Part shown: in pieces, positions 7,770-64,000 of the stretch | Layout of the letters: every line of letters begins with the position of its first letter | How positions within the stretch are numbered: the stretch's first letter is position 1 | Assembly: GCA_947623455.1 (NCBI GenBank) | Contig: OX392536.1 | Coordinates: 36,275,465 to 36,339,464, forward strand | Length of the DNA: 64,000 nt | DNA from: Mimachlamys varia | Taxonomy: Eukaryota; Mollusca; Bivalvia; Pectinida; Pectinidae | Direction: 5' to 3' | The notes under the pieces: model-generated | What the model was told of the DNA's origin: nothing | What the model saw: only the letters and a program-made list of their open reading frames with translations | Databases searched by the model: none | Position numbers and translations under genes: made by a program

Positions 7770-9050
7770 CCCCTAAATGTTGAGCATGTAGAGAGCGTAG
7801 GTGAGCGTAACCCCTGGATATCGAGCATATAGAGAGCGTAACATCTTGATATCGATGATGTAGAGAGCGTAGGTGAGCGTGGCCCCTGGATATCGAGCAT
7901 GTAGAGAGCGTAGGTGAGCGTAACCCCTGGATATCGATGATGTAAAGAGTGTAGGTGAGCGTAACCTCTTGATAACGATGATCTAGAGAGTGTAGGTGAG
8001 CGTAACCTCTTCATATCGATGATGTAGAGAGCGTAGGTGAGCGCAACCCCTGGATATCGAGCATGTAGAGAGTGTAGGTGAGCGTTACCCTTAGATATCG
8101 ATGATATAGAGAGTGTAGGTGAGCGTTACCCCTGGATATCGATGATGTAGAGAGCGTAGGTGAGCGTTACCCCTGGATATCGATGATATAGAGAGTGTAG
8201 GTGAGCGTTACCACTGGATATCGATGATGTAGAGAGTGTAGGTGAGCGTTACCCCTGGATATCGATGATGTAGAGAGCGTAGGTGAGCGTAATCCCTGGA
8301 TATCGATGATACAGGGAGTGTAGGTGAGCGTAACCCCTGGATATCGAGGATGTAGAGAGTGTAGGTGAGCGTTACCCTTAGATATCGATGATATAGAGAG
8401 TGTAGGTGAGCGTTACCACTGGATATCGATGATGTAGGGAGTGTAGGCGGGCGTAACCCCTGGATATCGAGGATGTAGAGAGTGTAGGTGAGCGTTACCC
8501 TTAGATATCGATGATATAGAGAGTGCAGGTGAGCATACCCCTGGATATCGATGATGTAGGGAGTGTAGGCGGGCGTTATCACTGGATATCGATGATATAG
8601 AGAGTGTAGGTGAGCGTTACCACTGGATATCGATGATGTAGGGAGTGTAGGCGGGCGTTACCACTGGATATCGATGATGTAGGGAGTGTAGGCGGGCGTT
8701 ACCACTGGATATCGATGATGTAGGGAGTGTAGGTGAGCGTTACCCCTGGATATCGAGGATGTAGAGAGTGTAGGTGAGCGTTACCACTGGATATCGATGA
8801 TATAGAGAGTGAAGGTGAGCGTTACCACTGGATATCGATGATGTAGGGAGTGTAGGCGGGCGTTACCACTGGATATCGATGATATAGAGAGTGTAGGTGA
8901 GCGTTACCTCTGGATATCGATGATATAGAGAGTGAAGGTGAGCGTTACCCCTGGATATCGAGGATGTAGAGAGTGTAGGTGAGCGTTACCACTGGATATC
9001 GATGATATAGAGAGTGAAGGTGAGCGTTACCACTGGATATCGAAGATGGG
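7770..9050. repeat. 41-bp minisatellite, about 31 copies
   Basis: Unit gatatcgatgatgtagagag followed by tgtaggtgagcgttaccactg. Variants (gcgggcgttaccac, gaaggtgagcg, cttagatatcg) come back in blocks, so it also has higher-order order. Open frames here are by-products. Confidence 0.95.
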
Positions 9051-10169: not shown

Positions 10170-10957
10170 CTACTTACAAATAAATGAAAATACAAAATTT
10201 GACATAATCGGATTAAAGGATGGAAGGGGATGTATGTCTACATTTTCATTCCCCACTGTTGCATCCCACTGATCTATATAATACACTTTGTCTTGTAATT
10301 CTTTGAATTCTTCGTAGAGTATCTGTTCATAGACTCTACTGCTGTAATCAAAGGGTTCACGAAAGCGATGGAACGTGTAAGAGTGAGGACCCTTTATGAG
10401 AATGCTTGAACGAGGAGAGCGTCTCAACAGTCGTAATATGGCGTGCTTAGCACTCGCTATATGACTCCTATATTGTTTCGGAGTTGTCCTTGTCATATGA
10501 CCAAACCAATGAAGCAAAACAATAGCACTTTTGTTTGCAGGTAAATCGTCTATTCTTGATGCGACAGTTCGAAAGTTTCGTTTGTCTTGTTCATAGCTGA
10601 AAAACGGAATTCCATGTGGTGACCAACAGATCGATAGGGATTTTGCATTATTTTCTGCTTCAGCAAATTTTTGCCATGCTTTATCCCTGACCTCATGGCG
10701 TCCAACGAATACGGGTAATTGCAACAATGCAGTTAAAGGTGAAAACCAGTTTCTTGTGGTAGAATCACCAGTAATAAGTACAGGGCGATCTCTTAAACAC
10801 TTGGCGTATGAGTCATACTTCCACGAGAGTGTGGGCTTACAGATCCGCGATCGCCAATTACCGTTGTAGAAGTAGCCTGTCGGGTTGGTGGTCTGCCATG
10901 TAATGGTACTGCTGACGTCATAACAGGAGACATTCGATTCTCCTGTGGCACCAGAAC
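10170..10957 (-). CDS. NXPE-family C-terminal PC-esterase exon
   Basis: Acceptor gattcctag; the open frame runs about 262 codons to TAG at 10172-10170. GDSTTR and the D-x-H block are intact, so the esterase-like site is not obviously dead. An alternative acceptor (ccacag, 15 bases further in) keeps the same frame. Confidence 0.88.
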
Positions 10958-13900
10958 CTAGGAATCAAAATAAAACATTTAAATCAAAACAGAAATCTAC
11001 TTCATATTAATAAAACCGTGATATACACTATTTAAAATTTGTTTTAATCACCCATTTGTCCTCATTTTAACGTATGTTCGTGTTAAGTTTAGACCATATG
11101 TGTATGCAGGGTATTTATCACTTTATCTCATGTCTTATCTGCCCAGTTTCAACGATAAAACAGTACTATGTTGTTAAGTGTAAATACCAATTTACATCAT
11201 ATAACTTATATATATATAGAGGTTACACAAAGAGAGGTCGATGGCTATGCTATTTAGTTCACTCGAGTTAGGTTATTATTATCATTATTAGGTCAAAAAT
11301 TACGAATGACACGCGCTTTAGCGAATATCTTTTGTAACTTTTGATAATTAACTAACGAGAGTGAAATAAGTACTATATCCATCAACCACGAGTCGTGTGA
11401 CCTGTTTCTCCCACAATACCAGCCAAAAACAGCAGTATTTCATTGACTTCAATATATATGATCCGCTGACAATATTGGTGTCAACATATATCGGATATTA
11501 TTTTCCCACAAAATGATGACGTCGTCAACAATCAGTAAGTGACGTTGTTTCGGTCAAAGTTCACCATGTAAGCCGATCAAAACTTGTTGAGAGTTTATTC
11601 AACGTGTGGTATAAACAGAAATGGTATTCAACAATTGTTATGATTATTTTCAACCCTGAAAGTTGAATAACATCCAACTATTGTGGTAGAGACATTGTTT
11701 AGCACTCCCTATCAAGGGTATTGCTTACTTTGATGCTTGGATTTCCTTCTAACCGTCAGTATCACTTGTACTGTACACGTATATTTGTGGCGACGTTATA
11801 TCTGAACATGCTTATGACCGTCAGTGTCTCGTCCGGATTATTTGTAAGATACATTGTGATAATGATACTAATAATTCAGGGTTCTTACAAACCGCTTTAT
11901 CATAACCTTTAGAGGACGTCCCAAAGTGGTTATAGGACCTTTGCAACCAGCCAATATCGTCCTCAACTCCCTTTGGAATATGTGACCGTTGCTGCCATTT
12001 TGGCACTCACAGCTAGCATTCTACAATGGTAGCACTGCCCAGCCACGTATTTATTTACAGTTGATAGACTGGAAGAATAATTCTTCTTAAATCTCCTTTT
12101 GGTCAGTCAGAAGGGAACTTTGTAACATGGTGGTCAACATTGATCTCTGTGGTACACCTTGGTATATGTTTTCACCTGCAATATGATACCACTACGTGAC
12201 ATAATATTGTGTTCCAGTATCCATACATAGTCCTGGTATGATGATTCAAATTTCAAAAACATTTCCCTATTGATTACAATATGCATTGACTAGATCCGGA
12301 GTAACAATATTGTGTTACTTATTGACCCAGGTTGTCGCTGTCAAATCGTTATTCTATGGCTTGCTATAGATACCGATAACATCCCGAGATGTATCGCCTG
12401 CTGACGAACAACCTCACGACACAGGTATAAGAGAGGGTAAGGTTAAAGAGAATGAAAAGTTGTTAAGGACGCCATCTTGGTCTCTTTGAGAGATAGTGTC
12501 TATCCTTTTATGATGAAGGTGGAAGATTTTGAATATATGTTCATCATTTTGATAACTTGTTGTGATGCAGAAAGATGCCTTCAGTCTCACGTTGATGACG
12601 AGACATTTACTTGGATGATAGGTAGACTTGCATGGCGGGTGTTGTCGATGAAAAAGAAGACACTTATTCTTCACGAACACCTAATCGCATCTCCTTGTAT
12701 TTTTGAAAGGGTCTACTTGTAAATGTTTTCTTTGTTAATATTTGCCCCACGTTTAATCGATTTTCAGTTCGGGTTATAGTTTAGTTCTTGTTTGTTAGTT
12801 GGTTGATATTGGTTGATTGTTGGTACGTCCTAATAACAGCCAGGGTCATTTAAGACAACTGCCTCTCGGTGTATGCGATGTGGCTGTGTGAGTTAAGAGC
12901 GAGTGTTTTTGGGAGGCGCGGTATGTTCGTGTGAGCCTTCTTTCGATACTCCGGATCTTTTGCCGATTTAGGTGCTACCACACTGAATAATATTGCCGAA
13001 GGCCCCCAGCAGAACACCCCACCCGGTCACATTATACTGACAACGGGCGAACCAGTCGTCCCACTCCCATAATGGTGGACGTCAAGCAAGGAGTAGTAAC
13101 TACTTTTGGTAGAGACTCTGATATGTCTCGGCCAGTGGACAGAACCGATTGCCTTCCCGTTGATGCTTCGGCATTATCTTATTTTTGTTCACAAACCATT
13201 TGTTTCATTTAGTTTGACAATTCCATTTGACAATTCTGGTACTTAAAGGTTGCAAAACACATTTTAATTTGATGTTAAATTGTTATTTCCATTTTTTCCC
13301 GTTAATTTGAAAATATCAATTGTTTTATATGTTTAATGCAATTTCAATAAAAAAAATTAGAAAAACTATATTTTTACACTGGTGTAGCAGTTCGATTGAC
13401 AAAAAAATCGGTGTTCAAATGGAAAGGAGGAAATATGCAACTTAAACATGATTATGGCTAATTAAAACACAAAGAAACAAGTATAAAAGATCGTCCTGTA
13501 CAAGATATATAACAAAATATGCTTTGCATATAAAGAAAAAGTTGATGTTATATATGCAGAGGATAAATGAAATTCAAGTACAAATACTTCTTTATTGACA
13601 GAAAAGGATTATTCATGTTTAATCATTGTATTTCATCAAAAACTTTCAAATCGCTATAGTACCTACCAGCTATTATGGTCAGATTTTCAATACTTTTCTT
13701 TAAATACTTGTAGTGTCTGAAATATAGTATTAGTTGAACACTTAGTATAACAAGGCAAACATAATATAAATCGGCACATCATATTGATTATATGATTTAA
13801 AATATTTTGATAATTGATCAATTGATTTAGCATCCGTATATAATACTCGTACGTTTAACAATGAATGTAAGTTAATCGCCCATCACTTTGCATTGACTAC

Positions 13901-16122
13901 GGAAACAATGATATGCTGAGGAAAGTTTGTACATCGAATTATTGTCACCCTGGATAGGTGGTTTTTACGTCCTTTTAACGGCCAGGGCAATTTAAGGACG
14001 TCCTCCTATGTATGGGTGTGTTGAGCGCGTGTGTATTTGGGAGGCCTTGGTATGGTCGTATAAGCCTTTTTTGCGATGGCCTAGATATTTTGCCAAATTA
14101 AAGTGTTACCCGACTGCCGAAAGCCTATAGCAGATAACAGCATACACTTAGATAGCATGACTTAGGAATTATTCTGTGTAAACAGCCTTGTTTTATCTAC
14201 GTATAGCTTAATGTTCTATCTACATGTAAATGGAGATGACATATAGTAATAATGCATGTGTTATATTTGTCGCATGTTGAAATAAAGGGTATATCTTAAC
14301 ACTTCTCTCTTCTTGAGCCTAGGACACTCTGACGGCGAATAAGTTATAGTATAAGCAACGAAAAAAGGCTCGGCGGATTGATATTTATTCAAATATGGCG
14401 TCGTTCAAGAATTTAAAACATGGAATATATATGGAATTAATTCCTCTTGTTATACCATACATTGTTTCTGGGAAACGTTTGATTCCAATTATGCGCATTC
14501 GAAATTCGCAAACATGGCGGCGCCCTGCAGTTGTGACGTCCGACTTCGGAGAGCGTCACAATCAGATCACTGTGTCAATGCGCGTACATAACGACCGTTA
14601 TAGATAAAGAAATAAATTCGAAATGCAAGTAACATTACTTTACTTAATACCACATATACAAGTAATGTAATGGAAATAAGCGGTAAAATTGGTATAAACA
14701 TGATAAAGTTGACTTTGTGGGCTTTACATTTGTAAAACAAACAAAAAATGGTTAGTGGTTGATTGTTTGGCCTTTCCGCAACGGTTGTCTTAACTTGAAA
14801 AACTAGCTTTACAGGAAAAAAATACTAAAAACCGTACATGAGGGAAAAAAGGCGAAAAATCTAAACAAATGACCTGTGCTGGGACACGGATAATTCTACA
14901 ACCAAGTTTGCAATCTTTAATTTTAACTAGAACTTAGGAAAAACATTCCTTTTTTTGGCGGTCAAATTTTGGGTTCTAAAATCGTTTTTTGGCCCTTTTT
15001 GGTTATTTTTTATGTGGTACATGTAACATGATTTCACACACGTAACATACATAGAAAAATGAGTTTTGTAGTGGAAATTGTAGTTGACAGACATATATAC
15101 CGAATTAATATTGTTTTGTTAGTTGATACTTTTGTATTTAAATTTCTAAGACATGGGACTTGTTATTTTCAGAATCGATCTACTTTTCTGTGGTCTGCTA
15201 CATTGTACCTTACATATGCTAACGCGGACCATAGAATATGGTCGATGTCAACTACTCGCATACTACTGTATACATGTACGCAGTCAAAATGAGGTACAAT
15301 CCTTGTATGTACTTACAAAAAGTAGTGAATTTTTACTCCGCGTTCCAGTGTTGTGAATGTAGATGGTATATATCTTTAATAATATTTATAATATTATTTG
15401 AGTCATATCAATGTTGAAATAAAAAAAGTACATGTACTTACATGTACAACAATGAGCTTTGCTTCACGTCCCATGGGTCTGCAGAGGAATCTTTATACAC
15501 AGTCCAATCTGCACAGCCTAGTGTTTTGGGTTTACCACAGAAAAAAGAGAAGTTATAGTTCTGTGTTGTAAAGTTACAGTAATCTGTTACGTTAGGAATA
15601 TTTGGTACAACGCTACAAATACTTGACTCTGTCACGTTTTGTTTCTTAAATCCTGCTCTTAGGAACCTTGACAAACCATATTTATGTACTATATTCATAA
15701 AAATTCCAACATGTTCTTTGGTATTTCCAATAGCAAACATTAGCTCTGGATTGCCGGCCCACATAGCTTTGACAATTCCCGTGTAGGACCCATTGTCATG
15801 GTCGATCACATAACCGGAAACGGAAGCTTGAAGGGAAGGTTCTCGTAGCCATACCCTGAGCATGTCACCTCCCCGTGTTGACCGCTTTCCTCTTCCGTTG
15901 TACAATACAATGTCGACCAGGATGTCATCTCCGATTCTGACGTCAGATCCTGTATTTCTTATGCTGACCATTGAGGTGGTGATATTCACTAGCGACAGGA
16001 AGTCTGTGAAGTCTGTGTAGTTCATGTACATATCCAGTCGGTCTAAAGCTTTTCGTGACAAGGTCCAGCGTACATCATACTGGTATTCTTCTCTCGGACT
16101 CGGAAATGCTACTTGAATAAAC
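10170..16122 (-). CDS. NXPE-family (neurexophilin and PC-esterase domain) protein, 5' end missing
   Basis: Two strong minus-strand exons: 16122-15442 (226 full codons, starts in phase 2, ends AT before gtaagt) and 10957-10170 (starts with two bases of a split codon, ends at TAG). The first exon codes the family's N-terminal region: WTLSRKALDRL, IGDDILVDIVLYNGRGKRS, GGDMLRVWL, a DHDNGSYTG turn and a LGCADWTVYK segment. The last exon codes the PC-esterase-like part: PTGYFYNGNWRSRICK, then LITGDSTTRNW (GDS block with the presumed nucleophile) and QWDATVGNENVDIHP (Asp-His block), ending FSFIC as family members do. The exon phases (2 then 1) do not join directly, so at least one exon between them is needed. 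The N-terminal membrane or signal segment was not found. NXPE proteins are mostly type II membrane or secreted, with uncertain substrates; glycan O-acetyl chemistry is inferred from the GDSL/PC-esterase fold. Confidence 0.85.
11330..11700. mobile_element. Foldback element family E, copy 2
   Basis: Reverse-oriented relative to 3803-4205: gtgaaataagtactatatcc, tcgtgtgacctgtttctcccacaatac, gatgacgtcgtcaacaatca, gttgaataacatccaac. It lies in the intron of the NXPE gene. Confidence 0.65.
11779..11801 (-). CDS. Possible 23-nt micro-exon joining the two NXPE exons
   Basis: On the minus strand, gcatgttcag precedes ATATAACGTC and a gtgtac donor follows 23 bases later. It would complete the split codon at both sides and add IYNVATNIR, which resembles the N-I-R-V stretch found at this place in family members. 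The donor is weak and the exon tiny, so this is only a phase-compatible candidate. Confidence 0.22.
12410..12790 (-). repeat. Dispersed repeat family B, copy
   Basis: Contains catggcgggtgttgtcgatgaa and the family's end ttagttcttgtttg; diverged. Confidence 0.65.
12818..13170 (+). repeat. Dispersed repeat family C, copy 1
   Basis: acgtcctaataacagccagggtcatttaag ... cggtcacattatactgacaacgggcgaaccagtcgtccc. It resembles short interspersed repeats common in mollusc genomes; copy 2 at 13960-14150 is partial. Confidence 0.6.
13170..13960. other. No gene found, AT-rich NXPE intron
   Basis: No open frame, palindrome or repeat stood out. Confidence 0.5.
13960..14150 (+). repeat. Dispersed repeat family C, copy 2 (partial)
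   Basis: acgtccttttaacggccagggcaatttaaggacg, then gtatttgggaggccttggtatgg, as in copy 1. Confidence 0.6.
14160..15437. other. No gene found, NXPE intron
   Basis: A CpG-richer patch at 14480-14580 (atggcggcgccctgcag) is the only compositional change. Confidence 0.45.
15442..16122 (-). CDS. NXPE-family N-terminal exon
   Basis: Acceptor gttacag before GTTTATTC; donor AT|gtaagt at 15441. The reading frame runs upstream of the first internal start as FIQVAFPSPREEYQYDVRW, so this is an internal exon, not the first. It holds the immunoglobulin-like filamin/NXPE segment with GGD and NGSYTG motifs and several N-glycosylation sequons (NYT, NIT, NVT, NFS). Confidence 0.87.
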
Positions 16123-17120
16123 CTGTAACAGAGTAAAAGAGTCGACTGTTTAAATGTTTCGCATTGTGACAGATCCTACGGTTGATTTATACCACGTGTA
16201 GAGATATATGATAGCAGTGCCGTTTTCTTTTCTGTGGAACATCCGATTCGTCCGCTTTTTAAGGTGGAAGTCCTGGTATTTGTTGAAAATAAAGTCGTTT
16301 AAATATAAGGCCCCAAACGAGATGCCTGGGTCCGAATGGCTATGCCTTATACCCAATTTGAATGTTTACCTTGATATATCTTATTTGCCATTTGGCTATT
16401 TACAAATGCTTGTTTTATTTTTACAAAGAGTGAATATGGACCCTCTATCCGAGAATTGGTTCGGTTATTACAGCTCCTGTGTTTATACATAGAACGGTAA
16501 ATATTAACTTCACTTCCGGTTTTAGACATGTGCGTGTACCCAAATTGATACCCAACCAGGAAAAGCAATGAAGTGCCATAACTGTTATGTTTTGTATGGA
16601 GATTACCTTGAATAATAAGGATGTAAGTATACTTTCTGTGCCGTATTATAAAGAATAGCAAGTGTTTTTACTGTTATAAAGTCTACAGAAAGTTCGTTCA
16701 ACACATGTACAAATGTAACATTCGGAACACTCAATGTGCAGTAATTATTGTATCTTTTCTAATTTGTTCCCCTGTCTGTTTCCTTGTGATTAGAGTTTAA
16801 TAAGATATCAAGGAGTTGACTTGTCTTTTATGTTTACCAATTATACATAATCAGCTGATAATAGGGACCCAGTGGAAATAAGCCTTTATATCAACAGTGT
16901 AAGGCTGTATGGGCTATCCCAAGTTAAAGGATGAAAGAAATTAAAATCTGTGATTATAATTAATATCTGTGATATATGATTCAATGGTCATCTAAATATT
17001 GCATTCTTTTATGTATTTTATTGTTGCCTTTAACCTGACTAAATGTTATTATTACAAATTCATATGAAGAATTGTTAATATAAAGGATAAGATATGAATC
17101 GAAATAGTACAAAAATCTGA
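16123..17120. other. No exon found upstream of the NXPE N-terminal exon
   Basis: The missing 5' NXPE exon should lie at or beyond here; I saw no phase-2 exon with a membrane segment. Confidence 0.4.
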
Positions 17121-34426: not shown

Positions 34427-50017
<15,591 letters not shown>

Positions 50018-61319: not shown

Positions 61320-61640
61320 TGGGAAATAGTCTGCATCTTTGTGTGGTATGAAGATGGACGTTTTTGAGTATGCTCATTAATATGCTTACTTATTGTGATT
61401 GAGGACGATGACTCGGTTCTCATTTCGAGGAATAAATGTTTACTTGGATATGACCAATATCTACATGGCGGGTGTCGTCGATGAAGCAGAAGACGCTTAC
61501 TCTTCCGGAACACCTTGTCGTATTCTCTTGTACTTTTGCAAGGGTCTCCATGTAGATATGTCCTTTGTTTATGTTTTGCTTCTAGTTTAATCGACTTTGA
61601 GTTCGGATTATGGTTTTGTTGACGCTTCGGTACTCGTTTC
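61320..61640 (-). repeat. Dispersed repeat family B, longest copy
   Basis: acatggcgggtgtcgtcgatgaagc ... agtttaatcgactttgagttcgg ... ttgttgacgcttcggtact, the reverse complement of 58099-58275 with extra 5' sequence. Confidence 0.75.
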
Positions 61641-61649
61641 TTTTAAGGT

Positions 61650-62825
61650 GCAGCATGTATGTGTGTTACGTGATCTTTCGTGTTCACGTCGTTAAGCTTT
61701 ATGAAATTCGTTAAATTCACAACATCAACATGCATGTGTCTTCTCATGTGCATGTTACAATGTACGTGTACAACACGTGACTAGTTTTGCGCTATTTTTG
61801 ATCTCCTGTCGAAAGCCTAAAATGTAGTGCACTTTTAACAGACTTTATGAACTAATCTTGAGAAAAAATATAATTCCTGCCTCAATGGCATATGTTATTA
61901 TGTCTCGAAATGTTGAAATAGCGTCGGGGGAATATTTCAAAACAATCGGTTACCATGGCCAAATTGCAGTTCCTTGTTTCAGCATCATTTGTACAGTTGC
62001 TAATTTGTTCGTTTTATTTTATGATTAGCATCTTTAGAGAAGCTCTTAATGGGCACGAGACTTCTTTTTGACCCAGTTAAACCAACGTTTCATGACATGT
62101 GTAGTTTTTTTGCTTTATTTCAATGACGGATATTGATCTCAGGTTTAGTCCGTTTTTTAGTTTTAATCTCTGTATTAAATTAAATGCTGACAGCGTCACA
62201 TGGAATAAATTCATTAAGTTTAGAAGCAATGACGATACTATGTATTCGCGTGCTATATATATATCAGACTTGGGACAATTACTTGTGCTAACCCAACAAC
62301 ATTTTTCGTATAATTTACGTATTACTAGTCAATTTGACACTGCAATGATTGTGTAATCCATGTTAATTTGTTCAAATCTCAGTTTATATAATGCTGATAA
62401 ACAGTTCAAGTAGAAAATAAAAGCCGTATTTGATAAGTTTCCATACGTATATTAACGTTTTCGCACGTGAGCAACCTTACAGGCGCTACGAAAATAAACA
62501 AAACAGTTTCAGGAGGGGAATAACCGAAAGAAACATACGTTTAACTACATAAGTTCAATTCAAATTACCATGTTAAACAATCATGTATTGTACATTGATT
62601 ATAAAATGGCATGACAATTATGCGCACTGTTGTTTAGAGATCTGTTTGACTTGTGTTAGCCTAATTACAAAAGTGATGGATCTTTTCATGTAAACAATCA
62701 ATCATCTGTCGCCATTCTAAAGACAATATGATCACTATATCAAATTTGCCGGACTGACACTGATTAGGATGGGGAACCTGACTAAAAGTTGTGGGGGACC
62801 ATAAAGTTGCCTCAAAAAAACTATG
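61650..62825. other. No gene found
   Basis: Single-copy AT-rich sequence; the open frame at 62123-62356 has no recognisable features. Confidence 0.4.
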
Positions 62826-62910
62826 TATACTGAAAGATGACGTAACACCCACACATGCTGCACCTTTTTAATTTAGTAATAGATACAGTATGCCCAAAAA
62901 ATAATTAAAA

Positions 62911-62958
62911 CTGCATCATACAGCTCTTTCGTCCTCCTAGGACTCTTCAGTGGTGCAA
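62911..62958 (-). ncRNA. Hammerhead ribozyme motif, copy 1
   Basis: Read on the minus strand: stem I strand TGCACCA (62957-62951), CTGAAGA (62950-62944), stem II GTCC-TAGGA-GGAC (62943-62931), GAAA (62930-62927), a tiny stem III, GTA at 62921-62919, then TGATGCA. The predicted cut is between 62919 and 62918. All core residues fit the CUGANGA...GAAA...NUH rule. Defects are one mismatch in stem I and G where C is expected after GAAA, which breaks stem III. Confidence 0.78.
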
Positions 62959-63289
62959 AGGGTCAAAAGGTGGGAATCCCAAATGGCTAGACTAATGTAG
63001 AAGCAGAAGGGTCAGGTGCGTAAAACCCCTTTAATTTATGAATTTAGAAGTAAAATCAAACTAGTGCTGTATAATTTCAAATCGTGTACTACGAAAATGT
63101 GTATATTAAGTACCATGCCACTACTCAAATGAGATTAACCGTTGCTATGGAGACTCCAGCTAACCTCGCGGACTAAACATCCACCAGCAGAATCTGTCAC
63201 CCCCATCATAAAAGATGATGTAACACGCACATATGCTGCACATTTTAAATTTAGTTATAAATACAGTATGCTGAAAACTGAATTAAAAC

Positions 63290-63335
63290 TGCACCATACA
63301 GCTGTTTCGTCCTCCTAGGATTCTTCAGTAATGCT
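63290..63335 (-). ncRNA. Hammerhead ribozyme motif, copy 2
   Basis: Minus strand: GCATTA (63334-63329), CTGAAGA (63328-63322), ATCC-TAGGA-GGAC (63321-63309), GAAA (63308-63305), CAGCTG, TA (63298-63297), then TGGTGC. Stem I pairs with two G-U wobbles; stem III (ACAGCTGT) is self-complementary, as in minimal hammerheads that work as dimers. Stem II has an A-C mismatch at its first pair. The predicted cut is between 63297 and 63296. Confidence 0.75.
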
Positions 63336-63405
63336 AGGGGCCAAAAGGTGGGAATCCAAAATGTCTAAACTAATGTTGAAGCAGAAGGGTCAGGTGCGTA
63401 AATAT

Positions 63406-64000
63406 CTTACATATATTATGCTAGTTACCCGCTATATCTTATATGTTACAAGTAAAAGATATCGTATTTAAAGTTGAGTAGATATAGCGTTAGCAAAATC
63501 ATAATCCAAACTCAAAATTGATTAAACCGTAAGATATTTTATATGATAACACATGTATTATGGATTAATATGGCATTTTGAAAACTGTATTAAGCCATAT
63601 ACGTTGTTTCAGCTTTTGCCATATATTCCGATCAGATTTTCACCGCTCCATCACGAGTGAGGACGGTTTCTTATCTCACATTTCAAATCCCGTTCTTTAG
63701 AAGAAATCTTATAATGAACGAATAATATGACATATCGCCTATAATACTCTTTATATTATTTAATATCTTTTATATCTTATATGATATACATATTGTATAT
63801 CTTATAATGAAATTCCTATACATGATTTATTACAAAGTATATACGATCTTATATATTATAAAAGATATATAATAAAGTTGATAAGATATCTGTTTAACTG
63901 TATAAGATACCGTATATAATTTAGTATAATCCTGGATCAACGTTGCTCAATGAATTAATGACAACTTGGTTTGTCATATTCTTTTCGTCCGTCCTTTCCT
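63406..64000. other. AT-rich tail with recurring tatcttatatgatata words
   Basis: Low-complexity, no gene. Confidence 0.5.

Follow-up and report, generated by a model that had tools for sequence, protein, structure and literature searches.

A decayed hammerhead element in the scallop Mimachlamys varia, probably a non-LTR retrozyme, and the constant 3′ end of its family

Hammerhead Retroelements in Animals and Plants

Animal retrozymes carry type I hammerhead ribozymes (HHRs) in repeats of 150-450 bp and, in the portions of the paper available here, are described from corals, mussels, and amphibians (PMC7229834). In the mussel Mytilus galloprovincialis, the same portions report about 5,000 HHR copies, usually in repeats of ~350-390 bp, with circular RNA and cleavage demonstrated. 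The amphibian HHR_Amex1, with its short stem III closed by a tetraloop, is described there as acting mainly as a dimer. The plant LTR retrozymes are noncoding, with HHRs in direct repeats and circular RNA as the proposed intermediate. Their HHR is of type III, and the available parts of two papers list LTRs of ~350 bp, a 4-bp target duplication, a PBS, a PPT, and a GC content above 55% (PMC7761336, PMC7229834).

Penelope-like elements (PLEs) also have type I HHRs, which lie in a repeated end with a partial-tandem layout (accessible parts of PMC11167929 and PMC7761336). In Anolis, a PLE begins reverse transcription at internal sites of its RNA, which are also where its insertions in the genome end; its hammerhead mutants still insert in vitro (PMC11167929, in part). 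A research paper of 2020 names PLEs as a strong candidate for mobilizing animal retrozymes (PMC7229834), and a review of that year finds in animal retrozyme repeats no conserved motif that would help to deduce the mobilizing autonomous element (PMC7761336), both as far as the accessible text of each goes. In the open-licence literature, no paper on scallop retrozymes was found, though some may be published elsewhere; the only match there for retrozymes together with target-primed reverse transcription concerns, in its accessible part, other elements.

The Element in the Window

The window is the whole stretch of M. varia DNA that was analyzed, 64,000 nucleotides long, and it lies on contig C10 of the genome searched (975,302,275 bases, 71 contigs). 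An initial annotation had proposed two minus-strand hammerheads 378 nt apart, and both motifs are where it put them: the pattern CTGANGA-N13-GAAA-N5-GTA has exactly two matches in the window, both exact, RF00163 finds both, and 378 nt separate the expected cut sites. When the pattern may contain one mismatch, 0.07 matches are expected by chance, and none of 100 shuffles gives two; a looser structural descriptor has two hits in the window compared to four in 300 dinucleotide-matched random windows. The two HHRs amount to one independent event because both are copies of one repeat. The covariance-model check suggested for them yields hits to both with RF00163 (Hammerhead_1) and so speaks for them, although their scores are under the curated cut-off; over the whole window, Rfam finds nothing at the gathering score, which for this model is 34 bits. 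When the 55-nt stretches are folded singly, neither favors the hammerhead shape, and other hairpins are preferred.

Each copy had been credited with a single defect. This holds for the HHR with its core at 63328, where the RF00163 alignment shows an A:C at the base of stem II and an intact stem III (C-AGCU-G), but the HHR at 62950 has a second defect in the same alignment, a C:A in stem I beside the G:G in stem III. Both HHRs are damaged, and the copy is old and decayed.

The element is also longer than the 62911-63335 first assigned to it; by self-comparison, it extends over 62833-63402 (Table 1). Its two direct repeats are identical at 168 of 192 positions (87.5%) without a gap, its longest frame is 59 aa, and its GC content is 39.1%.

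Table 1. Features of the retrozyme copy and related sequences. Positions are those of the window unless a contig is named; RF00163 scores come from a scan restricted to 62600-63700 (1.1 kb).
Feature	Position	Strand	Basis and details
Hammerhead (HHR), core CTGAAGA at 63328	63291..63334	-	RF00163 24.4 bits, E 0.0027; pattern; expected cut 63297/63296
Hammerhead (HHR), core CTGAAGA at 62950	62913..62956	-	RF00163 24.5 bits, E 0.0027; pattern; expected cut 62919/62918
Whole element, 570 nt, ~1.5 units	62833..63402	-	Self-comparison; ends placed against other copies
First 192-nt repeat (5′ in element)	63211..63402	-	Self-comparison
Second 192-nt repeat (3′ in element)	62833..63024	-	Self-comparison
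Inter-repeat part, 186 nt; with one repeat, the 378-nt unit	63025..63210	-	Self-comparison
378-nt unit releasable by two cuts	62919..63296	-	Cut-site spacing; GC 39.2%
Element 3′ end, 86 nt past second cut	62833..62838	-	Family-wide end position, taken as reverse-transcription start
35-nt family piece, opposite orientation to element, same 3′ end	61645..61679	+	32/35 identical to 62866-62832
42-nt motif copy	61585-61626	+	Window comparison
42-nt motif copies	63527-63486; 58148-58107; 19583-19542; 9295-9255	-	Window comparison
29-mer arrays (PLE group A hammerhead)	C3:2113584-2116440; C13:4027314-4030162; C18:13297478-13300326		Exact 29-mer sites

The Family in the Genome

The expectation that other genomic copies with a conserved core exist is borne out: the 24-nt HHR core CTGANGANTCCTAGGAGGACGAAA has 3,755 exact occurrences genome-wide, and its reversed control has none. 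A first sample consisted of 39 loci fetched as best hits to a 441-nt query (the best 40 of 6,870 candidates scored), from which short and diverged copies are missing. All 39 loci carry the HHR core, and 38 of them carry two or three, spaced 373-381 nt apart. The intact 32-mer CTGAAGAGTCCTAGGAGGACGAAACAGCTGTA is matched exactly by 33 of the 80 HHR cores fetched. Copies with the intact motif reach 32.4 bits with RF00163, which is below 34, and in the alignments of L132 and L147, all pairs are standard.

The initial annotation had also argued for a fully active ancestor. That the family had an intact ancestor is right, judging by the cores that match the 32-mer, but the argument from stem I arms that pair perfectly across the two window copies does not carry over, as the family's arms differ. 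Usually, GCATCA is combined with TGATGC or TGGTGC as the stem I arms, TGATGC being the common partner. Among 151 tabulated HHRs, three (2/82 and 1/69), one of them the window's own, have a C in the 5′ arm of stem I at pair 3, and it always faces an A; because this C is a rare change, the perfect cross-copy pairing is partly coincidence.

Pair 3 of stem I was tabulated in 69 HHRs as T-A (38), T-G (19), and C-A (1). The variation between T-A and T-G preserves pairing with one side only changed. A compensatory change at this pair (C-G versus T-A) was considered and rejected, with C-G in 0 of 69 HHRs, and the compensatory stem changes that had been anticipated among copies were not seen in two-sided form in any of the HHRs tabulated. 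Shared variants give no sign of selection on the HHR (3 in 44 HHR sites versus 24 in 335 outside), and the unit, when folded, gains no stability over its shuffles (z -0.21).

In the best-hit sample, 35 units diverge from the majority by 0.5-6.6%, compared to 11.4% for the window copy. In a second sample, anchored on the core and drawn from contig C1, copies are 81.4-98.4% identical to one unit; the window copy, at 89.4%, falls within this range and is therefore of ordinary age for the family. Copies within a locus differ by 4.68%, a mean that includes the window, versus 6.12% between loci, a mean that leaves the window out (0 of 2,000 shuffles). In only 13 of 34 loci does the first copy have the second as its closest relative. 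This likeness within loci is as expected if one circle is copied more than once, and the data are the same for a circle and a linear multimer. L131, L135, and L162 were left out of this comparison, of the shared-variant test, and of the first-sample tests for target-site duplication; L151 and L167 were also left out of the comparison and the duplication tests; and L153 was left out of the comparison and, for having a single HHR, of the shared-variant test too.

Two loci, L157 and L138, are arrays of three units each; the first two show no difference over the stretch that was compared, and the third departs from them by 2.6-6.8%. In each of these loci, the units do not all share one ancestry. 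L157 has CAAA in place of GAAA in its first two units. Viral contigs were searched as well: an exact retrozyme 21-mer had no matches among them, the HHR pattern was present in at least 120 stretches, and a search for PLE proteins gave 13 pattern matches, none of which was confirmed.

One 3′ End and Many 5′ Ends

Positions of the insertion ends are counted here from the ribozyme cut. The 39 best-hit loci and the window give 40 copies, of which 38 have their 3′ end at 83-92 nt, the exceptions being L151, which is joined to an inverted copy, and L167. The 5′ ends of the same copies fall anywhere in the unit, with lengths of 432-1,055 nt.

The second sample consists of 60 loci on C1 anchored on the exact 24-mer core, from the first ~60 of 100 listed places; the intact 24-mer is required for entry, so stem II is not judgeable there. 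The 3′ end is at 83-92 in 42 of these 60 copies and at 80-95 in 46, starts range from 19 to 376, and lengths are 102-669 nt, with 50 copies under one unit and 10 over. Fourteen copies end outside 80-95. L173, L185, and L195 terminate elsewhere, and the ends of several others, such as L170, L177, L202, L208, and L225, fall off this range because an indel broke the alignment, the bases that follow being still tail-like by eye.

A third sample of 70 tail-anchored C1 loci was taken in list order from 100 listed places; it omits places beside HHRs already listed as exact, as well as closely spaced pairs, and multi-unit copies are under-sampled in it. Here, 63 of the 70 end at 83-92, and 7 continue into another unit; the shortest copy is 24 nt, the search word plus one base. 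The constant 3′ end also holds in the core-anchored sample, which is able to include tail-less copies, as the tail-anchored one cannot. Duplicated loci (L129/L131/L135; L148/L162, recognized by their flanks; and L237/L238) are counted in these figures.

Sequence runs on across the cut site. Of the core-anchored copies, 58 of 60 continue for 15 nt or more past the anchoring HHR's cut, which means a ligated or uncut template, and lengths above one unit mean that a circular or multimeric template was needed. Reverse transcription that starts at one internal site on such a template and stops at varied points would leave a fixed 3′ end and scattered 5′ ends, as observed. The family has no fixed LTR ends in the three samples. 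The window copy has seeming terminal repeats because it made 1.5 turns; they are the overlap of those turns and no LTRs. Insertion ends thus record the points on the RNA at which reverse transcription begins and halts, a footprint that can be read wherever an animal genome with elements of this kind has been assembled.

No consistent target-site duplication was found across the samples, and none in the first; the excess over shuffles in the second comes from 7 of 60 loci that share a stretch of at least 10 nt, some of them inside host tandem repeats. Two further ideas about the ends were tried and set aside. A hairpin where reverse transcription begins agrees by eye with the window's sequence, but the GTGAT in commoner copies makes it less convincing. 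The ribozyme as a roadblock, with 5′ ends at phases 371-379, was matched by 7 of the first 39 tail loci, two of these from one duplicated locus, and then by 1 of 12 loci fetched for the test.

The 35-nt piece listed in Table 1 is read, from its likeness to the element, as a strongly 5′-truncated copy of the same family. A longer dispersed repeat ends in a separate motif of 42 nt, which has window copies at 83-86% identity; one is 84 nt upstream of the retrozyme and another 18 nt upstream of the 35-nt fragment.

Penelope-Like Elements in the Same Genome

A search for PLEs gave at least 56 GIY-YIG matches (150 of 241 candidates scored), and the two PLE frames that were scanned both contain RVT_1 and GIY-YIG. 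One group of six loci (L249-L254) has CTGACGA...GAAA-CCGG-TC and another of four (L256-L259) has CTGATGA...GAAA-CATG-TA, each of which reads as a minimal type I HHR by pattern. Rfam reported none in the motifs of L249, L250, and L256, and the HHR core is absent from the PLE flank L255 and the telomeric unit L248. In five of the ten PLE loci (L249, L251, L254, L257, and L258), pairwise similarity stops ~71-85 nt past the cut; in the other five, it continues to ~182-199 nt. The match between the retrozyme tail and the PLE tails is not significant, as 100 and 33 of 379 windows score at least as well as the true tail in the two PLE groups, and 63 of 379 do so by summed score.

Some observations on the PLEs stand apart from the retrozyme. 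A 29-mer from the hammerhead of PLE group A has 21 exact sites in the genome, including three arrays with a period of 1,410-1,414 nt (Table 1); these 1.41-kb hammerhead-bounded units, in size between the retrozyme and a PLE, are perhaps non-autonomous PLE derivatives. In addition, 28 of the 56 listed GIY-YIG matches are within 100 kb of a contig end (e.g., C16:14923-20642 and C17:23627-68103), and on C16, a frame with RT plus GIY-YIG stands in tandem with a period of 2,731 nt. This is a telomere-associated Penelope-like element at chromosome ends.

Comparison with Described Systems

The scallop element belongs to a known class, the metazoan non-LTR retrozymes, as the available portions of PMC7229834 describe it: it has a type I HHR core, repeats within 150-450 bp, a GC content below 50%, and no coding capacity. 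Like the Mytilus retrozyme of that paper, it places a type I HHR in direct repeats, with a unit of 378 nt here versus ~350-390 in the mussel, and its GC-poor, noncoding copies number in the thousands and range from under one unit to several. The HHRs of both animals are without most conserved loop-loop nucleotides. In the mussel, the RNA itself has been seen to circularize and cleave, whereas the scallop family is known here from its DNA sequence and is set beside the mussel's by description. No counterpart of the scallop's constant 3′ end and scattered 5′ ends was found in those portions of PMC7229834, and the insertion-end footprint goes beyond what they describe.

As in HHR_Amex1 of newt and axolotl (PMC7229834, in part), stem III is very short and its tetraloop, AGCU here, is palindromic. 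By analogy, the scallop HHR may act as a dimer. The axolotl ribozyme retains contacts between loop 1 and loop 2, according to the same portions, whereas the scallop stem I shows no bulge. Compared to plant LTR retrozymes, the scallop element is alike in being noncoding with HHRs in direct repeats and in its proposed circular RNA intermediate, and it differs in its type I HHR, its variable 5′ ends, and its GC of 39%.

With PLEs, it shares a type I HHR in a repeated, partial-tandem arrangement, and its 3′ end, 83-92 nt past the cut, is near the 71-85 nt at which half the PLE copies here end. PLEs encode RT and GIY-YIG, whereas the scallop retrozyme is noncoding. The PLE motifs in this genome have CCGG or CATG between GAAA and the cut site, no loop-closed stem III, and another stem II. 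Unlike the minimal type of PLE pLTR, the intact scallop HHR has a stem III of a C-G pair and a tetraloop, and its repeats are no fixed terminal units.

How Copies May Be Made

The window element is quite probably a decayed copy of a metazoan non-LTR retrozyme of M. varia, one whose RNA cuts itself and is reverse transcribed from an internal start on a circle or multimer, with a PLE as the most likely lender of the enzyme. Working copies would be transcribed as RNAs longer than one unit, and the hammerheads would cut them at the GUA sites. A host RNA ligase would then circularize the ~379-nt unit, as published for other animals. Next, a borrowed reverse transcriptase would begin at a single internal site 83-92 nt past the cut, at a genomic target, and would run around the circle (or along an uncut multimer), usually stopping before a full turn. 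The outcome would be a constant 3′ end, scattered 5′ ends, and insertions of up to ~2.8 units, the window copy representing 1.5 turns. The motifs suggest that the family RNA probably cuts itself by its hammerheads, and we infer circularization and a target-primed start; mobilization by a PLE is likely. Several results count against this explanation: the in vitro insertion of the Anolis hammerhead mutants; the lack of two-sided stem changes, of a selection signal, of extra stability in the folded unit, and of a consistent target-site duplication; the loci whose second copy is not closest to the first or whose units are of mixed ancestry; the 14 core-anchored copies with other ends; and, on the PLE side, the unmatched tails, the five copies that run on, and the motifs that Rfam does not report.

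A more specific version is possible, and we offer it tentatively. In it, the PLE reverse transcriptase would recognize a module of hammerhead plus tail and start ~70-90 nt past the cut on circular RNA, making one turn or more, so that retrozymes would parasitize PLEs. If this is true, the shared hammerhead is part of the enzyme's binding target, beyond being a scissor, and the question of what mobilizes animal retrozymes is answered.

The same element could instead be moved by a LINE-type retrotransposon, in the way that SINEs are. LINE-mobilized SINEs have a constant 3′ end and 5′ truncation, the very features of the scallop copies, and the retrozyme tail has no significant sequence link to the two PLE groups. 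A LINE as lender seems unlikely to us, though, since among 43 tail-anchored copies no longer element with the same tail is evident, their 5′ flanks sharing nothing but one 54-nt match and one duplicated locus. Also, hammerheads are reported from PLEs in the accessible parts of PMC7229834 and PMC7761336 and are present by pattern in both PLE groups here.

A pseudo-LTR origin has much less in its favor. The initial annotation left the choice between a retrozyme and a Penelope-like pLTR, and the first of these is upheld by the thousands of cores, the units of ~379 nt, and the lack of coding capacity, while the second falls with the lack of fixed terminal repeats. The window copy does have direct repeats with one HHR each around a middle part, a partial-tandem layout typical of PLEs (PMC11167929, in part), and it could be taken for a PLE stripped of its ORF. 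That is very improbable: the 186-nt middle is part of the ~379-nt unit in relatives of thousands of copies and no remnant, the longest frame is 59 aa, repeat length varies between copies because the 5′ end varies, and the stem II and stem III of the PLE motifs here are different. We find it equally hard to believe that the hammerhead likeness arose by chance or is functionless. Neither the window nor the copies scanned reach Rfam's gathering cut-off, and there is neither compensatory change nor a selection signal; against this stand the low chance expectation, the rarity of hits in random windows, and the intact relatives with all three stems paired and a full core. Least probable of all is a tandem satellite spread as DNA with the ribozyme as a passenger, for although two- and three-unit arrays exist and L157 and L138 mix units of different ancestry, five-sixths of the core-anchored copies are under one unit, and the copies are dispersed, with differing flanks and a single constant 3′ end.

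Other Features of the Window

Exons of an NXPE-family gene lie at 10170-16175 on the minus strand (NXPE4_C, E 2.5e-48; Neurexophilin, E 2.7e-8); a protein search with an NXPE-like exon gave 824 candidates, none at E 0.001. In the region 38323-48424, repeats of 39 bp and 145 bp form long arrays that alternate four times, and an array of a 41-bp repeat occupies 7834-9048.
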